Part shown: positions 9,874-53,000 of the stretch, piece by piece
Layout of the letters: every line of letters begins with the position of its first letter
How positions within the stretch are numbered: the first letter of the stretch is position 1
NCBI GenBank assembly: GCA_903855705.1
Contig: CAINZT010000196.1
Location: forward strand, 1 to 57,667
From: an uncultured Synechococcus sp.
GTDB taxonomy: Bacteria > Cyanobacteriota > Cyanobacteriia > PCC-6307 > Cyanobiaceae
DNA: 57,667 nt
Direction: 5' to 3'
Notes under the pieces: model-generated
Told to the model about the DNA's origin: nothing
The model's database searches: none
What the model saw: the letters and a program-made list of their open reading frames with translations, nothing else
Made by a program: the position numbers and the translations under genes

Positions 9874-12492
9874 TCAGTCCTCAGCCCAGGGGTCGTCCTG
9901 GGGCGGGCGGGGCCGGGGTGGCATGGGCTCGCCGCGGCGCTGGCCGTAGGAGGGGTTGGCGCCACCTTCGCCGGCATAGGGATCAAGATCCCGCTCCGGG
10001 TAGGAGCCGTAGGGGCTGGCTGGCTGCTGAGCCCAACTAGAGCGATTGATGGCAGCCCCATCCGGGCCTGGCCGGCGATCCCTTGGCCGATCATCGCTGG
10101 CGTCAAAGTCCCGATCCCTTTGGCGTGGATCCCAGCGTTCCTGGGACCCATCCCCTGGTCGATCGATCGAACGCTCAGACGCCCAATCCGCCGAGCGACC
10201 CCCAGGCGGTTCAAAGGACCTGTCCGCAGACCTGTCTGGAGACCTGTCTGGAGACCTGTCCGAAGCCCAATCTGCAGACCTGTCCGAAGACCAATCCGAA
10301 GACCTTTCAAAGGAACGGTCTGCTTGGCGGTCATCGAAGCGCTCTCTTGAGCGTTCTCCTGAGGGGAAAGCGGAACGGTCCAAGGTCTGATCGCGATCCC
10401 GACCCTGGCCCCAATCGGCCCTGGGTTCATAGCGATCGCGGCCATCCCCACGGGAAGGGGGCATGCCCACTCCACCGAGAGTGGAACTGCCTCCCCAGTT
10501 GCTGCCCAGGTCGCTGCGGAGCTCACCTCCCCAGCTGGACTCCCGCCAGGGGTCCTGTAGGCCGCGGCGGCTGCCGCCCCGGTCCCAGTCATCCCAGTCG
10601 TCGTCGGCGAACAACTCATCCTTGAGGGAGCCCAGGGTGTTTTTAAGGCCCTGGAGAGGGCCGCCCGCCTCACTGCGCCGCTCGCTGGTGAGGCGGCGAT
10701 TGAGGCCATAGAGGGCCTCCTGCAGTTCGCTCACCGCCACCTCCAGCTCGGCCAGGTCGCCGGCGGCGAGCAGGTCCTGCACCTGGCGCAAGGACAGTTC
10801 CACGGCCCGTTGCTGGCGGTCGGCCCCGTAGGGCCCCAGTTCCAGGGCGGCATCGCGCAGGCGCCGTTCCGCCTGGGCCACCAGGGTCTGGGCCCGGTTG
10901 CGGCGGTCGATCTCGCTGCGTTTGCGCCGATCTTCGGTGGCCTTCTGCTCGGCCTCGGCCAGCAGGCGCTGGACCTCCTCCTCGCTGAGGTTGGAGCCCC
11001 CCTGGATGCTGACGCTCTGTTGGCGGCCCGTGGTGCGGTCGGTGGCGGACACCTGCAGCAGGCCGTTGGCGTCGATGTCAAAGGACACCTGCACCTGGGG
11101 CACACCCCGGGGCGCCGGTGGAATCCCCGACAATCGGAAGCGGCCCAGGGACTTGTTGTCGCTGGCCATCTGGCGCTCCCCCTGGAGCACATGGATTTCC
11201 ACCGAGTTTTGATTGGCCTCCGAGGTGGAGAACACATCGGATTTGCGCACCGGAATCGGCGTATTGCGTGCAATCAGCACCTTCATCACGCCGCCAATGG
11301 TTTCCAGACCCAGGGAAAGGGGACTGACGTCATTGAGCATCAGGTCGCGCAATTCGCCGGTGAGAATGCCGGCCTGGACGGCGGCACCGATCGCCACTAC
11401 CTCGTCGGGGTTGACCGATTGGCAGGGCTCCAGGGGGACCAGGGTGCGCACCATGGCTTGCACCATTGGCATCCGGGTGCTGCCGCCAACCAAAACCACA
11501 TCGTCGATGTCTTCGGCGGCTAGGCCCGAATCGCGCAGGGCCCGCTGCACGGGGCGCAGTAGGCGATCGAGTAGGTCACCGCAGAGGCCTTCAAAGGTGC
11601 GGCGCTCCAGGGTCGTTTCGATGTGGAGGGGCCCGGCGTCAACGGTGGCAATAAAGGGCAGGGAAATCGGCGTGCTCTGAACGCCGGAGAGCTCCTGTTT
11701 GGCTTTTTCGGCCGCTTCGGTGAGCCGCTGCAGGGCCTGGCGATCACGGCGTAGGTCGATTTGGTGCTGGGCCAAAAAGGCTTCAGCCAGCCAATCGACG
11801 ATGCGCCGATCCCAGTCGTTGCCGCCGAGTTGGGTGTCTCCGCTGGTGGCCTTGACGTCAAAGACGCCATTGGTGATACGCAACACCGACACATCGAAGG
11901 TGCCACCCCCCAGGTCGAACACCAGCACCCGTTTGACGGCGCTGCGATCGAAGCCATAGGCCAGGGCTGCAGCGGTGGGTTCGTTGAGGATCCGCTCCAC
12001 GCTGATGCCGGCGAGGCGTCCGGCATCGCGGGTGGCCTGGCGTTGGGCATCGTTGAAATAGGCCGGCACGGTGATCACCGCCGCCTCGACCGGCTCGCCC
12101 AAGTAGGTGGCGGCGTCATCGACGAGCTTGCGCAGCAGGCTGGCGACCAGTTCTTCGGGGGCGTATTCCCGTTCCGTGGCCGGGCAGACCACGCGCACGT
12201 TGCCCTGGTCGTTGGCCCGGATCGTGTAGGGCACTGCCAGGCTGCCCTCTTCCAATTCATCCCAGCGCCGACCGACGTAGCGCTTGAGGTTGGCAAAGGT
12301 ATTGCGCGGATTGAGCACCAACTGGCGCCGGGCCAACTGGCCCACCAGCAACTCCTGCTCCCTGTTGAAGCCCAACACCGAGGGGGTCGTGCGCCCCCCT
12401 TCGGCGCTGGCGATCACCTGGGGACGGCCGCCTTCCAGCACCGCCACCACGGAGTTGGTGGTGCCAAGGTCGATGCCAACGATCCGCCCCAT
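9874..12492 (-). CDS. dnaK: Hsp70 chaperone DnaK (DnaK3-like) with long Arg/Asp/Ser-rich repetitive C-terminus
   Basis: MGRIVGIDLGTTNSVVAVLEGG..., VLVFDLGGGTFDVSVL..., VVLVGGSTRMPMVQ; C-terminus with DRSADWASDRSPDRSPDRSADRSF repeats. Confidence 0.95.
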   Translation of the reverse strand: MGRIVGIDLGTTNSVVAVLEGGRPQVIASAEGGRTTPSVLGFNREQELLVGQLARRQLVLNPRNTFANLKRYVGRRWDELEEGSLAVPYTIRANDQGNVRVVCPATEREYAPEELVASLLRKLVDDAATYLGEPVEAAVITVPAYFNDAQRQATRDAGRLAGISVERILNEPTAAALAYGFDRSAVKRVLVFDLGGGTFDVSVLRITNGVFDVKATSGDTQLGGNDWDRRIVDWLAEAFLAQHQIDLRRDRQALQRLTEAAEKAKQELSGVQSTPISLPFIATVDAGPLHIETTLERRTFEGLCGDLLDRLLRPVQRALRDSGLAAEDIDDVVLVGGSTRMPMVQAMVRTLVPLEPCQSVNPDEVVAIGAAVQAGILTGELRDLMLNDVSPLSLGLETIGGVMKVLIARNTPIPVRKSDVFSTSEANQNSVEIHVLQGERQMASDNKSLGRFRLSGIPPAPRGVPQVQVSFDIDANGLLQVSATDRTTGRQQSVSIQGGSNLSEEEVQRLLAEAEQKATEDRRKRSEIDRRNRAQTLVAQAERRLRDAALELGPYGADRQQRAVELSLRQVQDLLAAGDLAELEVAVSELQEALYGLNRRLTSERRSEAGGPLQGLKNTLGSLKDELFADDDWDDWDRGGSRRGLQDPWRESSWGGELRSDLGSNWGGSSTLGGVGMPPSRGDGRDRYEPRADWGQGRDRDQTLDRSAFPSGERSRERFDDRQADRSFERSSDWSSDRSADWASDRSPDRSPDRSADRSFEPPGGRSADWASERSIDRPGDGSQERWDPRQRDRDFDASDDRPRDRRPGPDGAAINRSSWAQQPASPYGSYPERDLDPYAGEGGANPSYGQRRGEPMPPRPRPPQDDPWAED
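10216..10335 (-). repeat. 12-bp tandem repeat (tetrapeptide repeat) inside dnaK
   Basis: Plus strand: ggacctgtccgc agacctgtctgg agacctgtctgg agacctgtccga agcccaatctgc agacctgtccga agaccaatccga...; minus-strand protein periodicity of 4 aa (DRSx). Confidence 0.9.
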
Positions 12493-16559: not shown

Positions 16560-17312
16560 TCAGATGGCTCGCATTAAATCGAGGCCGTGCAGGCCCTCGT
16601 ATAGCAAGTAGGCCCCAAGCACCAGGGCCAGCACACCCACCAGCCATTCAGCCTTGTGTTGCAACCAATCCTCCAGGCGGGCGATCGGTTCACGGATGGC
16701 GCCCCGGCTCACGAGCCAAGCCAGCGGTGGTAGCAGCAGCAGGGAACTGGCCACCAGGGTGAACAGACCCGTGACTTCGGCATCGGCCTTGAGGCCGGGC
16801 TCGTTGAGCAGCAGCAGACCGGCCTCCTTGAGATAGAAGACCAGATTTTCCGGCGTGAGCAGGGCGCTGGTGGCTCCGATCAACACCAGGGTGACGGTGT
16901 TGAAGTCGGGCAGCTGGTTCATCAGCCGTAGGGCCATGCCCTCTTCACCGATGTTGGCCTGGGGGGTGAGTTGGTAGAGGCCCAGGCCCACTAAGGCACC
17001 GGCGCCGAGCAGGTCGATCAGCACCTGTTCCCGTTCGCCATGGTTGAGGCTGATCGAGAAGGTCTCGCCCACCAGGGTGAGCACCACGATCGCCAGGGCA
17101 TTAGCCAGGGCCCAACCGCTCACGTAGGCCATGGCCCGCTGCAGGGGTGCCTTGCCCAACAGAAGCAGGGCCACCACGGCGATGTGCAGGGGGCTGAAGG
17201 CAATCCCAATTCCGAACAGGGACGACTTGGTGACCAGGGCAGTGGTCAGAACTCCAGGGCTGTAGAGGGCTGGGGGCAGGCTGGCGCTAGCAACCAGGGC
17301 GGAGAGAGACAA
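16560..17312 (-). CDS. GAP-family/LysE-like multi-pass membrane protein
   Basis: SSLFGIGIAFSPLHIAVVALLLLGKAPLQRAMAYVSGWALANALAIVVLTLVGE; about 6 TM segments. Confidence 0.65.
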   Translation of the reverse strand: MSLSALVASASLPPALYSPGVLTTALVTKSSLFGIGIAFSPLHIAVVALLLLGKAPLQRAMAYVSGWALANALAIVVLTLVGETFSISLNHGEREQVLIDLLGAGALVGLGLYQLTPQANIGEEGMALRLMNQLPDFNTVTLVLIGATSALLTPENLVFYLKEAGLLLLNEPGLKADAEVTGLFTLVASSLLLLPPLAWLVSRGAIREPIARLEDWLQHKAEWLVGVLALVLGAYLLYEGLHGLDLMRAI

Positions 17313-33989: not shown

Positions 33990-34505
33990 TCAGGCGAGAT
34001 GCTTAAGCTGCACTCTCTGCACCTGGGGGAGGACCCGGGCAGCAATCGCTGGGCCCAGTAACAGCCCAAACGAGAGGAGCAGCACGGGCACGGGCATGAG
34101 CTGCAAGCCCACAAGGACAGCACCGCCCGCCAGCAGGGCAGCCACCGTGACCGGTTCCTGGGCAACGGCGACAATCGGGGGCTGAACTCCGGCTAGGGGT
34201 AGCTCAAGTTCACGCCAATGGGTTAAGCCACCATCGAGCCATTGCAGGCTGCGGCCGTAGCCGGAGTCATGCAACAGGCCAATAGACTGTTGGGCCTGGG
34301 GATTATCGTCTGCCAGCACGATCCAATCGCCATCGGGCCACTCCTGGCTAAGCAACAGGGGTAGAGGAATGTTGTGGCTACCTTCGATATGGTGCTGGCG
34401 GAACGAACGACGCGAGCGGATATCGATTAACAGGGCAGGATCCGCCGACGCTTGGGACTCAAGCAACTGGCTTGGTGAAAGGCTGGACAGGGTCTGGGTT
34501 GTCAT
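33990..34505 (-). CDS. Rhodanese-like domain protein with C-terminal TM segments
   Basis: MTTQTLSSLSPSQLLESQASADPALLIDIRSRRSFRQHHIEGSHNIPLPLLL...; two hydrophobic C-terminal stretches. Confidence 0.75.
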   Translation of the reverse strand: MTTQTLSSLSPSQLLESQASADPALLIDIRSRRSFRQHHIEGSHNIPLPLLLSQEWPDGDWIVLADDNPQAQQSIGLLHDSGYGRSLQWLDGGLTHWRELELPLAGVQPPIVAVAQEPVTVAALLAGGAVLVGLQLMPVPVLLLSFGLLLGPAIAARVLPQVQRVQLKHLA

Positions 34506-34804
34506 GGCTGGAAGAGAAATGGGGGATAAGGAGCAGCGGTGATCGAGCGTCCCTGGAGGCGCTTCGGCATTCGGAACCATCCGCAACATCGCCATGCCAT
34601 TGGCCCAACCAGGTCCCAGGGATCGGGCCATTGTCAGCCTTTAGGAGGCAAAAAGCGGTATCCCGAGCCACAAACCGTAGAATTAGCACCAATCGGAGGT
34701 GTGGCGGCCCTGGTCCTGGCCTGCAGGCCCCAGTTGGCACCTAGAGAAGAGCAAGATCAGGCCTTCAGGGGTTGGGGTGGCGGCGAGCGTATGCCCCGCT
34801 TTGC

Positions 34805-34834
34805 CATAAAAAGGCCCCGGTTGGAGCCGGGACC
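34805..34834 (-). terminator. Intrinsic terminator
   Basis: Minus strand GGTCCCGG-CTCCAA-CCGGGGCC-TTTTTAT. Confidence 0.8.
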
Positions 34835-34985
34835 GGTGATTCCACTCCCTAACAGTTCCGAACAAGAATTCAGAGGAGCTTGTTCAAGTTCTGCACCATC
34901 AGCTTGCGGGCTATGGCAGGCATCGGTGGTGCGCCCGACTACAGGCCCGCAAGCCGATGACTACATCGTGGCTAAACCGGCTCGC
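34805..34985 (-). ncRNA. Putative structured RNA (sRNA or leader/attenuator), three tandem hairpins ending in an intrinsic terminator
   Basis: Minus-strand stems CATCGGCTTGCGGGC/GCCCGCAAGCTGATG (34959-34897), CAGAAC-TT-GAACAAG/CTTGTTCGGAACTG (34893-34853), GGTCCCGG/CCGGGGCC plus T5 (34834-34805). 5' end not defined. Confidence 0.5.
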
Positions 34986-35043: not shown

Positions 35044-35502
35044 GTGATGGCGATGGGCTACGACCATTCCTGTTTTGATGAGCAAGGCGGTCAGGCCCCT
35101 AGCCAGCCCACCCGACTGGACTCGGTGACCAATCCGCTCACCCAGGACGTTGACAGCGAAGCTGGCGGACTGGCCAAGGTGCACAGCCTGATGCCCCTAG
35201 AAGCTAGGCGCCTGATTTGGGAGGGGGCGTTGGTGCTTGTTCTCGCGCCAGAAGCCAAGCAGCACCTAGAACTGGGCGCGCCTATCGGCCGGCGCGTTGA
35301 GATTTGCCTGAATCGCCCTTGGGGTCGGGAGCTCAAGCGACTGGTCAACGACCCAGCTTTGCCGATCATCTGCTGCGAAGATGACCCCAAAAACCAGCGC
35401 CGCATCACCGGAAAATTACAGAAGTTGGGCTTCCAACATATTTTCACGGTTCAGCCCCATCCGATCACCGGAGTGAGTAATAACGACTCAATAAACCAGT
35501 GA
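35044..35502 (+). CDS. Hypothetical protein
   Basis: 152-aa ORF with coding-like composition: SLMPLEARRLIWEGALVLVLAPEAKQHLELGAPIGRRVEI...; divergent from the RNA candidate. Confidence 0.6.
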   Translation: MMAMGYDHSCFDEQGGQAPSQPTRLDSVTNPLTQDVDSEAGGLAKVHSLMPLEARRLIWEGALVLVLAPEAKQHLELGAPIGRRVEICLNRPWGRELKRLVNDPALPIICCEDDPKNQRRITGKLQKLGFQHIFTVQPHPITGVSNNDSINQ

Positions 35503-35632: not shown

Positions 35633-36439
35633 TCAAACCAGGGCCTGTCCTAACGCTGGTTCAGGGATGTGGTGGGCCACCAGTTCACCGGAACGGAGCA
35701 GCAGGGCTTCGCCGTTTAGAAGCGGCAGCCACTGCTCGTTGGTGGTGAGGGGTTGGGTGCTCACAATCGTCACCACATCGCGATCCGTGGTCACCTGGGA
35801 GAAATCGACAGTGAGATCCTCATCGGCCAGGGTGGCGGTGGTGAAGGGGGCCCGCCGGGTGAGGCGATGCAATTTTGTGGTGGCATAGGCAAACAACCAA
35901 GCGCCATTGCTGATCAGGCAATTGAAGATGCCCATGGCCGCCAGCTGGTTGGCCCTAGCCAGAAGGGCCTCAAACAGGGCGTTGGGATTCTGGGGATCGA
36001 TGCGGTCACGATCTAGACCATTGAGGATCCAGCAAAAGGCTGCCTCACTATCGGTACTGCCGTAGGGCTGAAATACTCCCGCCGGGTCTAGCTGGCCCTT
36101 GATGTCGCCATTATGGGCAAACACCCATTCCTGACCTTGCCATTGGCGGTGAAACGGATGGCAATTCTCAATGGCAATTACCCCCTGGGTGGCCTTGCGG
36201 ATATGGGCAATGGAACAATGGGCCTTGAGGGCAAGATCAGCCACCTCGGCCGCCACTTTAGAAAAGGCCGCCGGAGTTTCTTCCCGGTAGATGGTGACTC
36301 CCTGGCCAGCTGGATCAAAACTGGCTAGCCCCCAGCCATCGCCATGTTCACCGGTAGCTCCTCCGCGGCGGGCCAGGCCGCGGAAGGAAAAGGTCATATC
36401 GGTGGGGGTATTGGCACTGAGGGCCAGCAATTCACACAT
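35633..36439 (-). CDS. Class II glutamine amidotransferase (YafJ-like)
   Basis: MCELLALSANTPTDMTFSFRGLARRGGATGEHGDGWGLASFDP..., IAHIRKATQG, NCHPFHRQWQGQEWVFAHNGDI; N-terminal Cys2. Confidence 0.93.
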   Translation of the reverse strand: MCELLALSANTPTDMTFSFRGLARRGGATGEHGDGWGLASFDPAGQGVTIYREETPAAFSKVAAEVADLALKAHCSIAHIRKATQGVIAIENCHPFHRQWQGQEWVFAHNGDIKGQLDPAGVFQPYGSTDSEAAFCWILNGLDRDRIDPQNPNALFEALLARANQLAAMGIFNCLISNGAWLFAYATTKLHRLTRRAPFTTATLADEDLTVDFSQVTTDRDVVTIVSTQPLTTNEQWLPLLNGEALLLRSGELVAHHIPEPALGQALV

Positions 36440-36587
36440 GCTTGCAATGAATACGTGATCTAGCCCATTCAGTTCAGGTCGGCGAGATGGGTTGCCAGGG
36501 CAGGGCCTTCTAATCACTTTACAGGGAGCAGCTTTGCCAAGCTGGTCAGGGTGTACAAACTCAATAGGTCTGCTGGCCTGGGTCAAT

Positions 36588-36615
36588 AAAAAGCCCCAAC
36601 CGCTCGGGCCGGGGC
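36588..36615 (-). terminator. Intrinsic terminator downstream of sbpA
   Basis: Minus strand GCCCCGG-CCCGAGCGG-TTGGGGC-TTTTTATT. Confidence 0.8.
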
Positions 36616-37883: not shown

Positions 37884-38312
37884 GTGGCCTTCAGTTCCAA
37901 GACGGAGTACGGACTGGTGGCCCTGATTGAGCTTGCCAGCATTTATTCCAGTGGGGGCGTGCTGCAAGTAGCCGAGATCGCCGCCCGCCAGGGGATCCCT
38001 GACCGCTATCTAGAACAGATGCTCACCAGCCTGCGCCGCGGCGGCATCCTGCGCAGTATCCGCGGTCCCCGTGGGGGGTATCAGCTGGTTCGCCCACCGG
38101 CAGAGGTAGCCGTAGCCGAAGTGGTGCTGTGTCTGGATGGGGATCCGGCCAGCCGGGATGGAGCCCCGGAAACGCCCGAATACCAGGTGCTGCAGTCGCT
38201 GGCGAGCCAGCTGGAGCAGGCCCGACTCAAGGTGGTGCGGGCCACCAGCCTGCAAGACCTTCTGGATCGTCGCGATGGCCTGCTGCAGGCCCAGAGCATG
38301 TACTTCATCTGA
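37884..38312 (+). CDS. Rrf2-family transcriptional regulator lacking the IscR cysteine cluster
   Basis: SSKTEYGLVALIELASIY...VAEIAARQGIPDRYLEQMLTSLRRGGILRSIRGPRGGYQLVRPPAEVAVAEVV; only one Cys. Confidence 0.9.
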   Translation: MAFSSKTEYGLVALIELASIYSSGGVLQVAEIAARQGIPDRYLEQMLTSLRRGGILRSIRGPRGGYQLVRPPAEVAVAEVVLCLDGDPASRDGAPETPEYQVLQSLASQLEQARLKVVRATSLQDLLDRRDGLLQAQSMYFI

Positions 38313-38328
38313 GTCCGGGGACATTTCC

Positions 38329-38350
38329 CGCATGCCCGAGTGGGTATGCG
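38329..38350. promoter_or_regulatory. 22-bp palindrome upstream of cysR-like gene
   Basis: CGCATGCCC-GAGT-GGGTATGCG, 9-bp arms, one mismatch. Confidence 0.5.
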
Positions 38351-38463
38351 TGCTATGGTTTTGGCATCCCTGGGAGAAGCCGATGGGTTGTTGTCGCCGA
38401 ATGCTCCTGGCCGGTTGATGCCGGCCTCGCCTAACGCCATGACCGTTCCTTTGCCTTCTCGCC

Positions 38464-39048
38464 ATGACTTTTGCTCAAGCCCCGGCTCTTGCCCATCCAC
38501 CGCTCCGCCTAACGCTTCTGCCCAATGACGTTCTGCCGGAACGGCTGAACTGGCGGATCCAGGAGGGCTACATACGCACAGCAGCTTGGGACGAAGATGG
38601 CGACACCATCACCCTGGGGGTTTGGGGTCCTGGGGATTGGATCACCTCGGCCTACTCCGCCCTGCGCCCTGTAGAAATTCAGTGCCTCACCACCGTCGTG
38701 GTGGAGCAGTTCAGCCCCGGAGCCGCCGACATCGAGCAGTTGCTTCTGCGGCAGATTCAGAACCTCGAAGAAATCTTTCAGATCAACCGCATCCGTGCCG
38801 CTTACCAACGACTACTGGGTCTTCTTGCCTGGATTGGTCGCCGCTTTGGCCAGGTGAGCACCCGGGGTTATCGCCTCTCCCTTAAGGACATGAATCTCAC
38901 CCATAAAGCTCTCGCCGATATCTGCGGCCTGACCCGGGTGACGGTTACAAAAATGCTGAACCGCTACAAGAGTGATGGGGTTCTGCAACAGGTTAGCAAA
39001 GATGACCTCTTCATTCCATCAATCGCGCTCACGCCCGTTGCCGCCTAA
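38464..39048 (+). CDS. cysR: Crp/Fnr-family regulator, CysR-like by context
   Basis: C-terminal HTH MNLTHKALADICGLTRVTVTKMLNRYKSDGVLQQV; located within the sulfate transport cluster. Confidence 0.75.
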   Translation: MTFAQAPALAHPPLRLTLLPNDVLPERLNWRIQEGYIRTAAWDEDGDTITLGVWGPGDWITSAYSALRPVEIQCLTTVVVEQFSPGAADIEQLLLRQIQNLEEIFQINRIRAAYQRLLGLLAWIGRRFGQVSTRGYRLSLKDMNLTHKALADICGLTRVTVTKMLNRYKSDGVLQQVSKDDLFIPSIALTPVAA

Positions 39049-47254: not shown

Positions 47255-47347
47255 TCAACAAGCGGGCCCTGGCAACCAGCTCCTAAAAAATTTGGTTGCC
47301 AGGGACAACATTTCTGTTGGTTTGTTAACTCAATCGTATTCATTATA

Positions 47348-47373
47348 GGAGCCCTTTAGGGCTCCTTTTTTTT
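47348..47373 (+). terminator. Intrinsic terminator downstream of pstS
   Basis: GGAGCCC-TTTA-GGGCTCC-TTTTTTTT. Confidence 0.93.
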
Positions 47374-47463
47374 GGATCCCCATCTCTGGGTTTAAGCGCT
47401 AACCAGAACTTAACCCGGCGCCTACCAGAGCTTTGCTCAGATCAAAGTGTTGCTCCATACACT

Positions 47464-50037: not shown

Positions 50038-53000
50038 TTAAGGCTTGAGCAGCGCGGGGCTTTGCTCCTTTCTCAACCCCAGCCGCCGGGCTAACCGTTC
50101 CGCCATCACATAGGAAACTGGGGTGACATAGAGGGTGACCAGCTGGGAGATCAGCAGGCCACCCACCACCACCAGACCGAGGGAGCGGCGGGTTTCAGCC
50201 CCCGCTCCCCAGCCAATGGCAATCGGCAGGGTGCCGACGATGGCCGCCAGGGTGGTCATCATGATCGGCCGAAAGCGCAGCATCGAGGCACTGTGAATGG
50301 CCTGCTTGAGGCCAACCCCTTGGCGCCGTTTATTGATAGCGGCATCCACCATCATGATCCCATTTTTCTTGACGATACCAATCAACAACACCAGGCCAAT
50401 CGTGCTGTAGAGATTCAATTCAGATCCAAACAGGATCAAGGTGGCCAGGCCTCCTACGGCCGCTGAAGGCAAGCTGGTGAGAATCGTGAGCGGATGAATC
50501 AGATCCTCATAAAGGATGCCCAGCACCAGGTAGATCACCAGCACGGCAGCCAGCAACAACCAACCCAGCCCCGAGACGGATTGTTCAAACACCTTGGCGG
50601 AGCCCTGAAACGATCCTGTGGTGCCCACGGGCAATAGCTGCTCGGCTAAGGATCGAATTTCGGCAGTGACCGTATCGAGGGAGACGCCTGGATTGGTGTT
50701 GAAAGAGAAGGTGACTGAGGGCAGCTGGTCGGTGTGGTTAACCGTGAGGGCCGTGGCCGTAGGGCGGCTAGTGGCCAGGGTGGAGAGGGGGATGAGCTGG
50801 CCCTGGGCATTGCGCACGGTCAACAGATCCAGGTCGGCGGGGCTGTTTTGGGCGGCTAGGTCGACCCCCAGGATGACCGGGAATTGGCCATCGGAGCGGT
50901 AGATGGTGGAGACCTGCTGCTCGCCATAGGCGCTGCGCAAGGCTGTCTGCACGGCGGTGGCATCGACCCCCAAGCTGGCGGCCCGGTCGCGATCGACCGT
51001 GATTTCCAACTGGGGATTGTGGGATTGCAGGTCGCTACTGACATCACTAAGGCCCTTGAGGCTGCGTAAGCGCTGCTCAAACTCAGGGGCCGCCTCCAGC
51101 AGGGCCTCTTGATCAATCGCCTGGAGGCTGTAGAGGTATTGGGCGCGGCTCTGCACGGCCCCCACATTCACCGCCGCCGGCACTTTGACAAAGCCGCGCA
51201 GCCCCGGAACGCTGTTGACCACTCGTCGCAGGCTGCGGGCCAGGGCTGCCGCTGACTGGTTGCGCTCGGAGCGGGGCTTCAATTTGAGAAACAGGCGGCC
51301 ATTATTCGCCGTGGAATTGGGTCCGCCGGAGCCCACCGTGTTGTTCACTCCGGCCACCGCTGGATTCGCCTGGAGTTTGCGGGCCAGGATGGTCTGCATG
51401 GCGGCCATCTCCTCAAAGGAGGTGCCCTCAGCCGCCTGGGTGTTGACGGTGAGCTGGCCCGTATCGGCATCAGGGATGAACCCCTTAGGCACCAGTAGGA
51501 ACAGAATCACAGTGAGCAACAGCAAACCGGCAGAGAGGCTCTGCACCAGCCGGGGCCGGCGTAGTGCGGTCGCCAAGCTGAGGCCGTAACTGCGGCTGAG
51601 CTGCTCAAACAGGCGATCGAACCGTTGCAACAGGGCGTGGCCGCGCAGGGCAACGCCTGGCTCGGGCAGCAGCCGGGCCGCCAACATCGGCGTGAGGCTT
51701 AGGGCGACCAGCCCGGAGAGCAGGATCGCCAAGCTGAGGGTGACGGCAAATTCCCGGAACAGGCGGCCCAGCAAACCGCCCAGAAACAGGATCGGGATGA
51801 ACACTGCCACCAAGGACAGGGTCATCGACAGGATCGTGGGGCCAATTTCGCGGGCACCGCGCAGGGCTGCCAGCCAGCGGCTTTCGCCGTCTTCCTGGCG
51901 GCGCACGATCGCCTCCACCATCACGATGGCGTCATCGACCACAAAACCCACACTGAGGGTGAGTGCCATCAACGACAAGTTGTCGAGGGAGTAGCCCAGC
52001 AACGCCATGGCCCCGAAGGTGCCGATAAGGGACACGCCAATGGCCAGGGCCGGTAGGGCTGTGGTGATGCCGGTACCGAGGAACAGGGCCACCACACCCA
52101 CCACTAGGGCGATCGTGATCACCAAGGTGAGTTCCACGTCCCGGATCGCTTCGCGGATGCCCTCGGAGCGGTCAAACAACACCTGCAGCTGAATGGCCCC
52201 TGGCAATTCAGCGCGCAGGGTTGGTAGCAATGCATGGACGGCATCGGCAATCGCCACGGTGTTGCTGCCGCTCTGCCGTTGCACCGCCACCACAATCGAG
52301 CGACTGCCGTTGTACCAACTGGCGCTGCGTTCGCTGTTAACGCTATCGAGCACTTCGGCCACCTCGCCGAGTTTCACCGGCGACCCGTTGCGGTAAGCCA
52401 CGACCAGCTGGCGGTAGGCGGCCGCATCATTGAGCTGGCCGTTGTCCTGGACGCTGACGGTTTGGCGGGCGCCGTAGAGGTTGCCGGTGGGCTGGTTGGA
52501 ATTGCCGGCGCGGACCGCCCCATTGACTTGATCGATGCCGATGCCTTTAGCACTGAGGGCCTGGGGATCGACGCGGATGCGCACGGCGTATTTCTGGGCG
52601 CCATAGAGCTGCACCTGGGAAACGCCATCGAGGGTCGAGAGCCTCTGGGCCACCCGCACCTGGGCCACCTGGGTGACCTCCGATAGGGGCAACAGATCGG
52701 AGGTGAGCACCAGATAGAGAATCGGCTGCTCAGCTGGATTGACCTTGCGAATCGAGGGGGGCGTGGGCAAATCCGCCGGCAACTGGCGCGCTGCCTGGCT
52801 GATCGCCGTTTGCACATCCTGGGCGGCCGCATCGATATCCCGTTCCAGGTTGAACTGAAGGGTGATCTGGCTGCTGCCCTGGGCGCTGCTGGAGCTCATC
52901 TCGGCGATGCCGGCAATGCTCGAAAACTGCTGCTCCAGGGGTGTGGCCACGGAGGTGGCCATGGTGGTGGGACTGGCCCCCGGCAGGGAGACATTCACCT

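Follow-up and report, generated by a model that had tools for sequence, protein, structure and literature searches.

The locus considered here lies in a 57,667-nt stretch of DNA from an uncultured Synechococcus sp., referred to as the window throughout, whose source, a freshwater Synechococcus-like genome, is a draft assembly of 2.63 Mb in 229 contigs with a completeness of 93%. A segment with strong folding potential (34805-34984) is placed between a minus-strand sulfur operon, consisting of a rhodanese gene and two downstream genes which we take to be metY and metX, and the divergent plus-strand gene ORF152. The designations metY and metX were adopted from a first-pass annotation of this DNA and from similarity to known proteins. 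The features relevant to the following are:

33990-34505, minus strand: rhodanese gene (Pfam Rhodanese), first of the rhodanese-metY-metX operon and a neighbour only
34656-34677, minus strand: 22-nt dyad CGGTTTGTKGCTCGGRATACCG, probable operator/promoter of rhodanese-metY-metX, upstream of rhodanese in relatives
34808-34834, minus strand: hairpin 3, intrinsic terminator with an 8-bp stem (34834-34813) and a U-run (34812-34808); equivalents in relatives covary
34835-34859, minus strand: purine-rich spacer, core AGGGAGTGGA at 34850-34841; purine-rich in 11 loci, near-repeat in G055
34852-34894, minus strand: hairpin 2, predicted fold; relatives also have a hairpin at the equivalent place
34896-34960, minus strand: hairpin 1, 65 nt, predicted fold, lineage-specific; arms absent from the nearest relative G001
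34968-34978, minus strand: weak copy (weak match) of an upstream motif, GGTTTAGCCAC, which reads GTGTTCACAACCAC in relatives
35053-35502, plus strand: ORF152, divergent rhodanese-like protein with homologues in G001, G010, G183, G265 and others
35633-36586, minus strand: class II glutamine amidotransferase gene (Pfam GATase_4), convergent with ORF152

ORF152 itself has no Pfam match; its homologue in G055 matches Pfam Rhodanese (E 4.6e-8), and by this kinship the gene product is classed as a degenerate rhodanese-like protein. Further along the sulfur region, adjoining sbpA, regulators of the Rrf2 and Crp families are encoded side by side (37884-39048, plus strand), the Crp-family member being CysR-like by position.

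The three minus-strand hairpins proposed in the first-pass annotation are all present as described, and their coordinates were recovered. Hairpin 1 pairs two 15-nt arms (34897-34911 and 34945-34959, one G-U on the minus strand), while in hairpin 2 GAACAAG at 34885-34879 pairs with CTTGTTC at 34866-34860, lengthened by G-U pairs and by GCAG/CTGT. With a G+C-rich stem-loop directly followed by TTTTT at 34812-34808, hairpin 3 has the make-up of a true intrinsic terminator; such strict terminators are rare, with three in the whole 57-kb window including this one. Another of them (36588-36615, minus strand) immediately follows sbpA and precedes the amidotransferase gene. Folding of the minus strand at 34805-34984 yielded z = -5.1 compared with -2.2 for the plus strand, which is rank 3 among 768 windows of 180 nt, both strands counted. 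A 221-nt stretch covering the segment gave z = -3.5, and none of 200 shuffles was equally stable. Other very low z-scores (-5.3 to -4.6) were obtained at 47255-47434, 16955-17134, 11705-11884 and 52055-52234, all on the plus strand, the first of these containing a strict terminator at 47365 (plus strand). The assignment to the minus strand had been argued from pairs that are G-U on this strand and A-C on the other; this is correct but weak, and the U-run is the better evidence. Likewise, the statement that no convincing ORF explains the segment holds, as the plus-strand ORF of 162 aa is without a Pfam match.

Such folding could also be a by-product of conservation for another purpose. The 160 nt upstream of ORF152 might be conserved plus-strand promoter or leader DNA, with hairpins 1 and 2 on the minus strand arising incidentally or by chance. 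It is consistent with this that the part of the window aligning best with G001 is the ORF152 side, and that stems of the hairpin 1 type are not unusual, about 15 occurring in 57 kb (at least 16 pairs, loops of up to 40 nt, G-U and one mismatch allowed). A leader of ORF152 does not, however, account for a covarying terminator with its U-run on the minus strand only, nor for a minus-strand fold much stronger than that of the plus strand, and is considered improbable. No sigma-70-like promoter site was recognized on either strand of the segment.

As had been noted by eye for several of them, the segment matches no known RNA family in Rfam: the covariance models of Rfam 15, including the SAM/SAH riboswitches, tmRNA, SRP and the Yfr RNAs contained there, gave no match at gathering or relaxed thresholds. 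The 6S RNA (RF00013) of the same genome is located on contig C140 (98.8 bits), so that the segment itself is not 6S RNA. A description of the locus or of such an RNA was not found in the papers searched, which dealt with small RNAs and with sulfur control in cyanobacteria, and the CysR paper PMC12016511 has no binding-site text.

The first-pass annotation had placed the hairpins about 300 nt upstream of the sulfur operon, and the distance from the terminator to the rhodanese ATG at 34505 is indeed about 300 nt. The reading as a structured leader of rhodanese-metY-metX, such as an attenuator or riboswitch, had several points in its favor, the segment being co-directional, terminator-ended and beside sulfur genes. 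The suggested link to this operon was not supported by the comparison of relatives. The 22-nt dyad is located downstream of the terminator, in the interval before the rhodanese gene; its consensus (CGGTTTGTTGCTCGGAATACCG) occurs in most of 22 Cyanobiaceae loci, approximately 70-315 nt upstream of the aligned start of rhodanese. In the window the dyad is unique, elsewhere in its genome only matches with three mismatches occur, and in each of eight other genomes it is the only zero-mismatch site. It is probably the operator/promoter of the operon, which shifts the likely control point to a site downstream of the terminator. The dyad is often trailed by TTAA, approximately 3-6 nt on, and the neighboring Rrf2- and Crp-family regulators are candidates for binding it. 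Moreover, G265 retains the element and ORF152, with none of rhodanese, metY and metX following downstream, and G001 together with several other loci has the operon, in several cases including the dyad, without the element. In view of this and of the missing Rfam match, a leader function for the operon is very unlikely. As this case shows, a hairpin that precedes a metabolic operon does not have to be its leader.

The search for copies in relatives by DNA similarity, as the first-pass annotation had suggested, yielded none beyond the window (149 relatives, 400 family genomes, phages and plasmids). Since the element is single-copy in its genome, it does not represent a repeat or MITE family. G001, a MAG of the sister species Synechococcus sp. 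UW140, is the nearest relative in which the locus occurs; it keeps ORF152 and the operon. Its gap lacks hairpins 1, 2 and 3, and aligns with that of the window over some 70 nt toward ORF152 and over the stretch before the rhodanese gene. Four further genomes of the same genus (G002-G005) have no close homologue of rhodanese or ORF152. In other Cyanobiaceae, a terminator was found on the same strand at the equivalent place, divergent from the small rhodanese-like ORF. A hairpin, a purine-rich spacer and a terminator are common to G010, G151, G206, G265, G274 and G343, which represent one other Cyanobiaceae genus, and to G183, all seven scoring at least 73 bits against the model; G331 features a similar arrangement with a degenerate U-run. 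The distance from the terminator to the ORF152 start is 160-163 nt in eight genomes, and the gap between terminator and dyad is variable (26 to 63 nt). In other genomes the model gave weak matches, which, as far as checked (G200, G079 and others), did not neighbor the marker genes. The possibility of a small conserved ORF in these relatives (ending CE-stop or CA-stop) was rejected, as there is a 1-nt indel and the substitutions are distributed across codon positions.

The conservation and covariation of the stems, on which the proposal of a structured RNA had been made to depend, was obtained in part: the terminator covaries in relatives, but hairpins 1-3 do not occur in G001. The alignment comprised eight relatives (six of one genus, G183 and G331) and left out the window. 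Two-sided changes were observed in five of the ten pairs of the terminator stem, 97.5% of the cells were paired as against at most 54% when the stem was slid, and 0-1 of 500 shuffles reached the main covariation measures. The stem is kept by selection in these eight relatives, G001 being without it. For the hairpin before the spacer, little covariation and weak pairing support were found in the relatives with two alternative pairings tried.

Several similarities suggest that the window copy is homologous to the elements of the relatives. A model (R1) built without the window from six of the seven genomes scoring at least 73 bits, with G265 left out, has its best match in the window at 34803-34889 on the minus strand (11.9 bits), with a weak E of 0.3 over 57 kb and of 0.003 in the local 600 nt; this counts as moderate evidence, because the resemblance of the window had already been noticed before the model was built. 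The window spacer GGGAGTGGAATCAC matches GGGAGTGG-ATCAC directly before the G055 terminator, and 0.6% of 30-mers drawn at random from these loci match as well as this. Purine richness of the spacer extends to 11 loci (0.67 vs. 0.48); these are related, so that the P value from resampling is not a true probability. In addition, a motif like GTGTTCACAACCAC is located 80-81 nt before the terminator in seven relatives and 89 nt before it in G337. Its weak copy in the window, which has TAGCCAC in common with G183, stands at -144, and subtraction of the 65 nt of hairpin 1 gives -79, compared with -80 in the relatives. As the distance is restored without hairpin 1, this hairpin was presumably added in the lineage of the window.

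In the main rival reading, hairpin 3 is regarded as the plain terminator of the upstream co-directional amidotransferase gene, a possible source of read-through transcription into the segment. Read-through would then cross ORF152 antisense and stop at hairpin 3, insulating the sulfur operon, and the rest of the segment would be 3' untranslated sequence with incidental folding. The amidotransferase gene is convergent behind ORF152 in nearly all genomes, with little or no space between the two in most, and the next strict minus-strand terminator after this gene is the one at 34812. Where the amidotransferase gene lies directly before the operon, G337 and G220, both without ORF152, have a terminator directly behind it, whereas none was found in G300, G325, G409 and G026. 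In G183, however, which has the amidotransferase gene on the far side, the element is retained between ORF152 and rhodanese, and the approximately 4.5 kb seen upstream of it contain no real gene on its strand. The block from ORF152 to metX is turned in this genome relative to the amidotransferase-sbpA-rrf2 block. Besides, a spacer, an upstream motif and a fixed length are unexpected for a plain 3' end. Because of G183 and this fixed geometry, a mere 3' end of the amidotransferase transcript is not preferred and is held to be possible but somewhat doubtful. The arrangements in G265 and G183 imply that the element tracks ORF152, and neither the sulfur operon nor, strictly, the amidotransferase gene.

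The explanation favored here, which we rate as nearly an even prospect, is that a small or antisense RNA runs divergently from ORF152, that the segment represents its 3' part, and that its terminator additionally shields the operon controlled by the dyad. We infer transcription of the element, with a start, size and target as follows. A non-coding minus-strand transcript would start between ORF152 and the segment, or antisense within ORF152, with its 3' end at the intrinsic terminator (34834-34808). As conserved core it would contain the purine-rich spacer followed by the terminator, usually preceded by a hairpin and amounting to about 100 nt in the relatives, while the version of the window, with its added 65-nt hairpin, would reach roughly 150-180 nt. 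The element would belong with the divergent rhodanese-like ORF152 and might act through its purine-rich single strand or by covering the 5' region of ORF152, and the terminator might prevent this minus-strand transcription from entering rhodanese-metY-metX, an operon under separate control. This explanation is not rated higher owing to the lack of a recognizable promoter and the absence of the element in G001. Extending this further, an undescribed Cyanobiaceae family of small RNAs (hairpin, purine-rich seed and terminator), paired divergently with a degenerate rhodanese-like protein and involved in sulfur/cysteine control, is a tentative and rather unlikely proposal, in which the window copy would carry the added 65-nt hairpin. 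If transcribed on its own, the element would be a picocyanobacterial small RNA whose genomic partner is fixed and whose neighborhood is one of sulfur assimilation. Both leading readings are of known kinds, so that the novelty is modest and would be confined to the family and the gene it is paired with.

Compared with known systems, the element has in common with SAM/SAH riboswitches that structured sequence is found ahead of methionine genes, but it has no Rfam match and lies outside the probable transcript of the operon. With bacterial trans-acting and antisense RNAs it shares a short non-coding stretch, a hairpin, a single-stranded spacer, a terminator and the divergent orientation to a gene, whereas it matches no Rfam family, shows no recognizable promoter and is a candidate only. 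Excludon-like and other long antisense 3' ends of convergent genes resemble it in occupying the opposite strand upstream of ORF152 with a convergent gene behind, yet in G183 the element is retained without this convergent gene. Intrinsic (Rho-independent) terminators feature the same G+C-rich stem, short loop and U-run, are strand-specific and have a stem covarying in relatives; in the relatives, a spacer rich in purines and a motif at a fixed distance upstream are kept in addition, which is more than a bare terminator needs.
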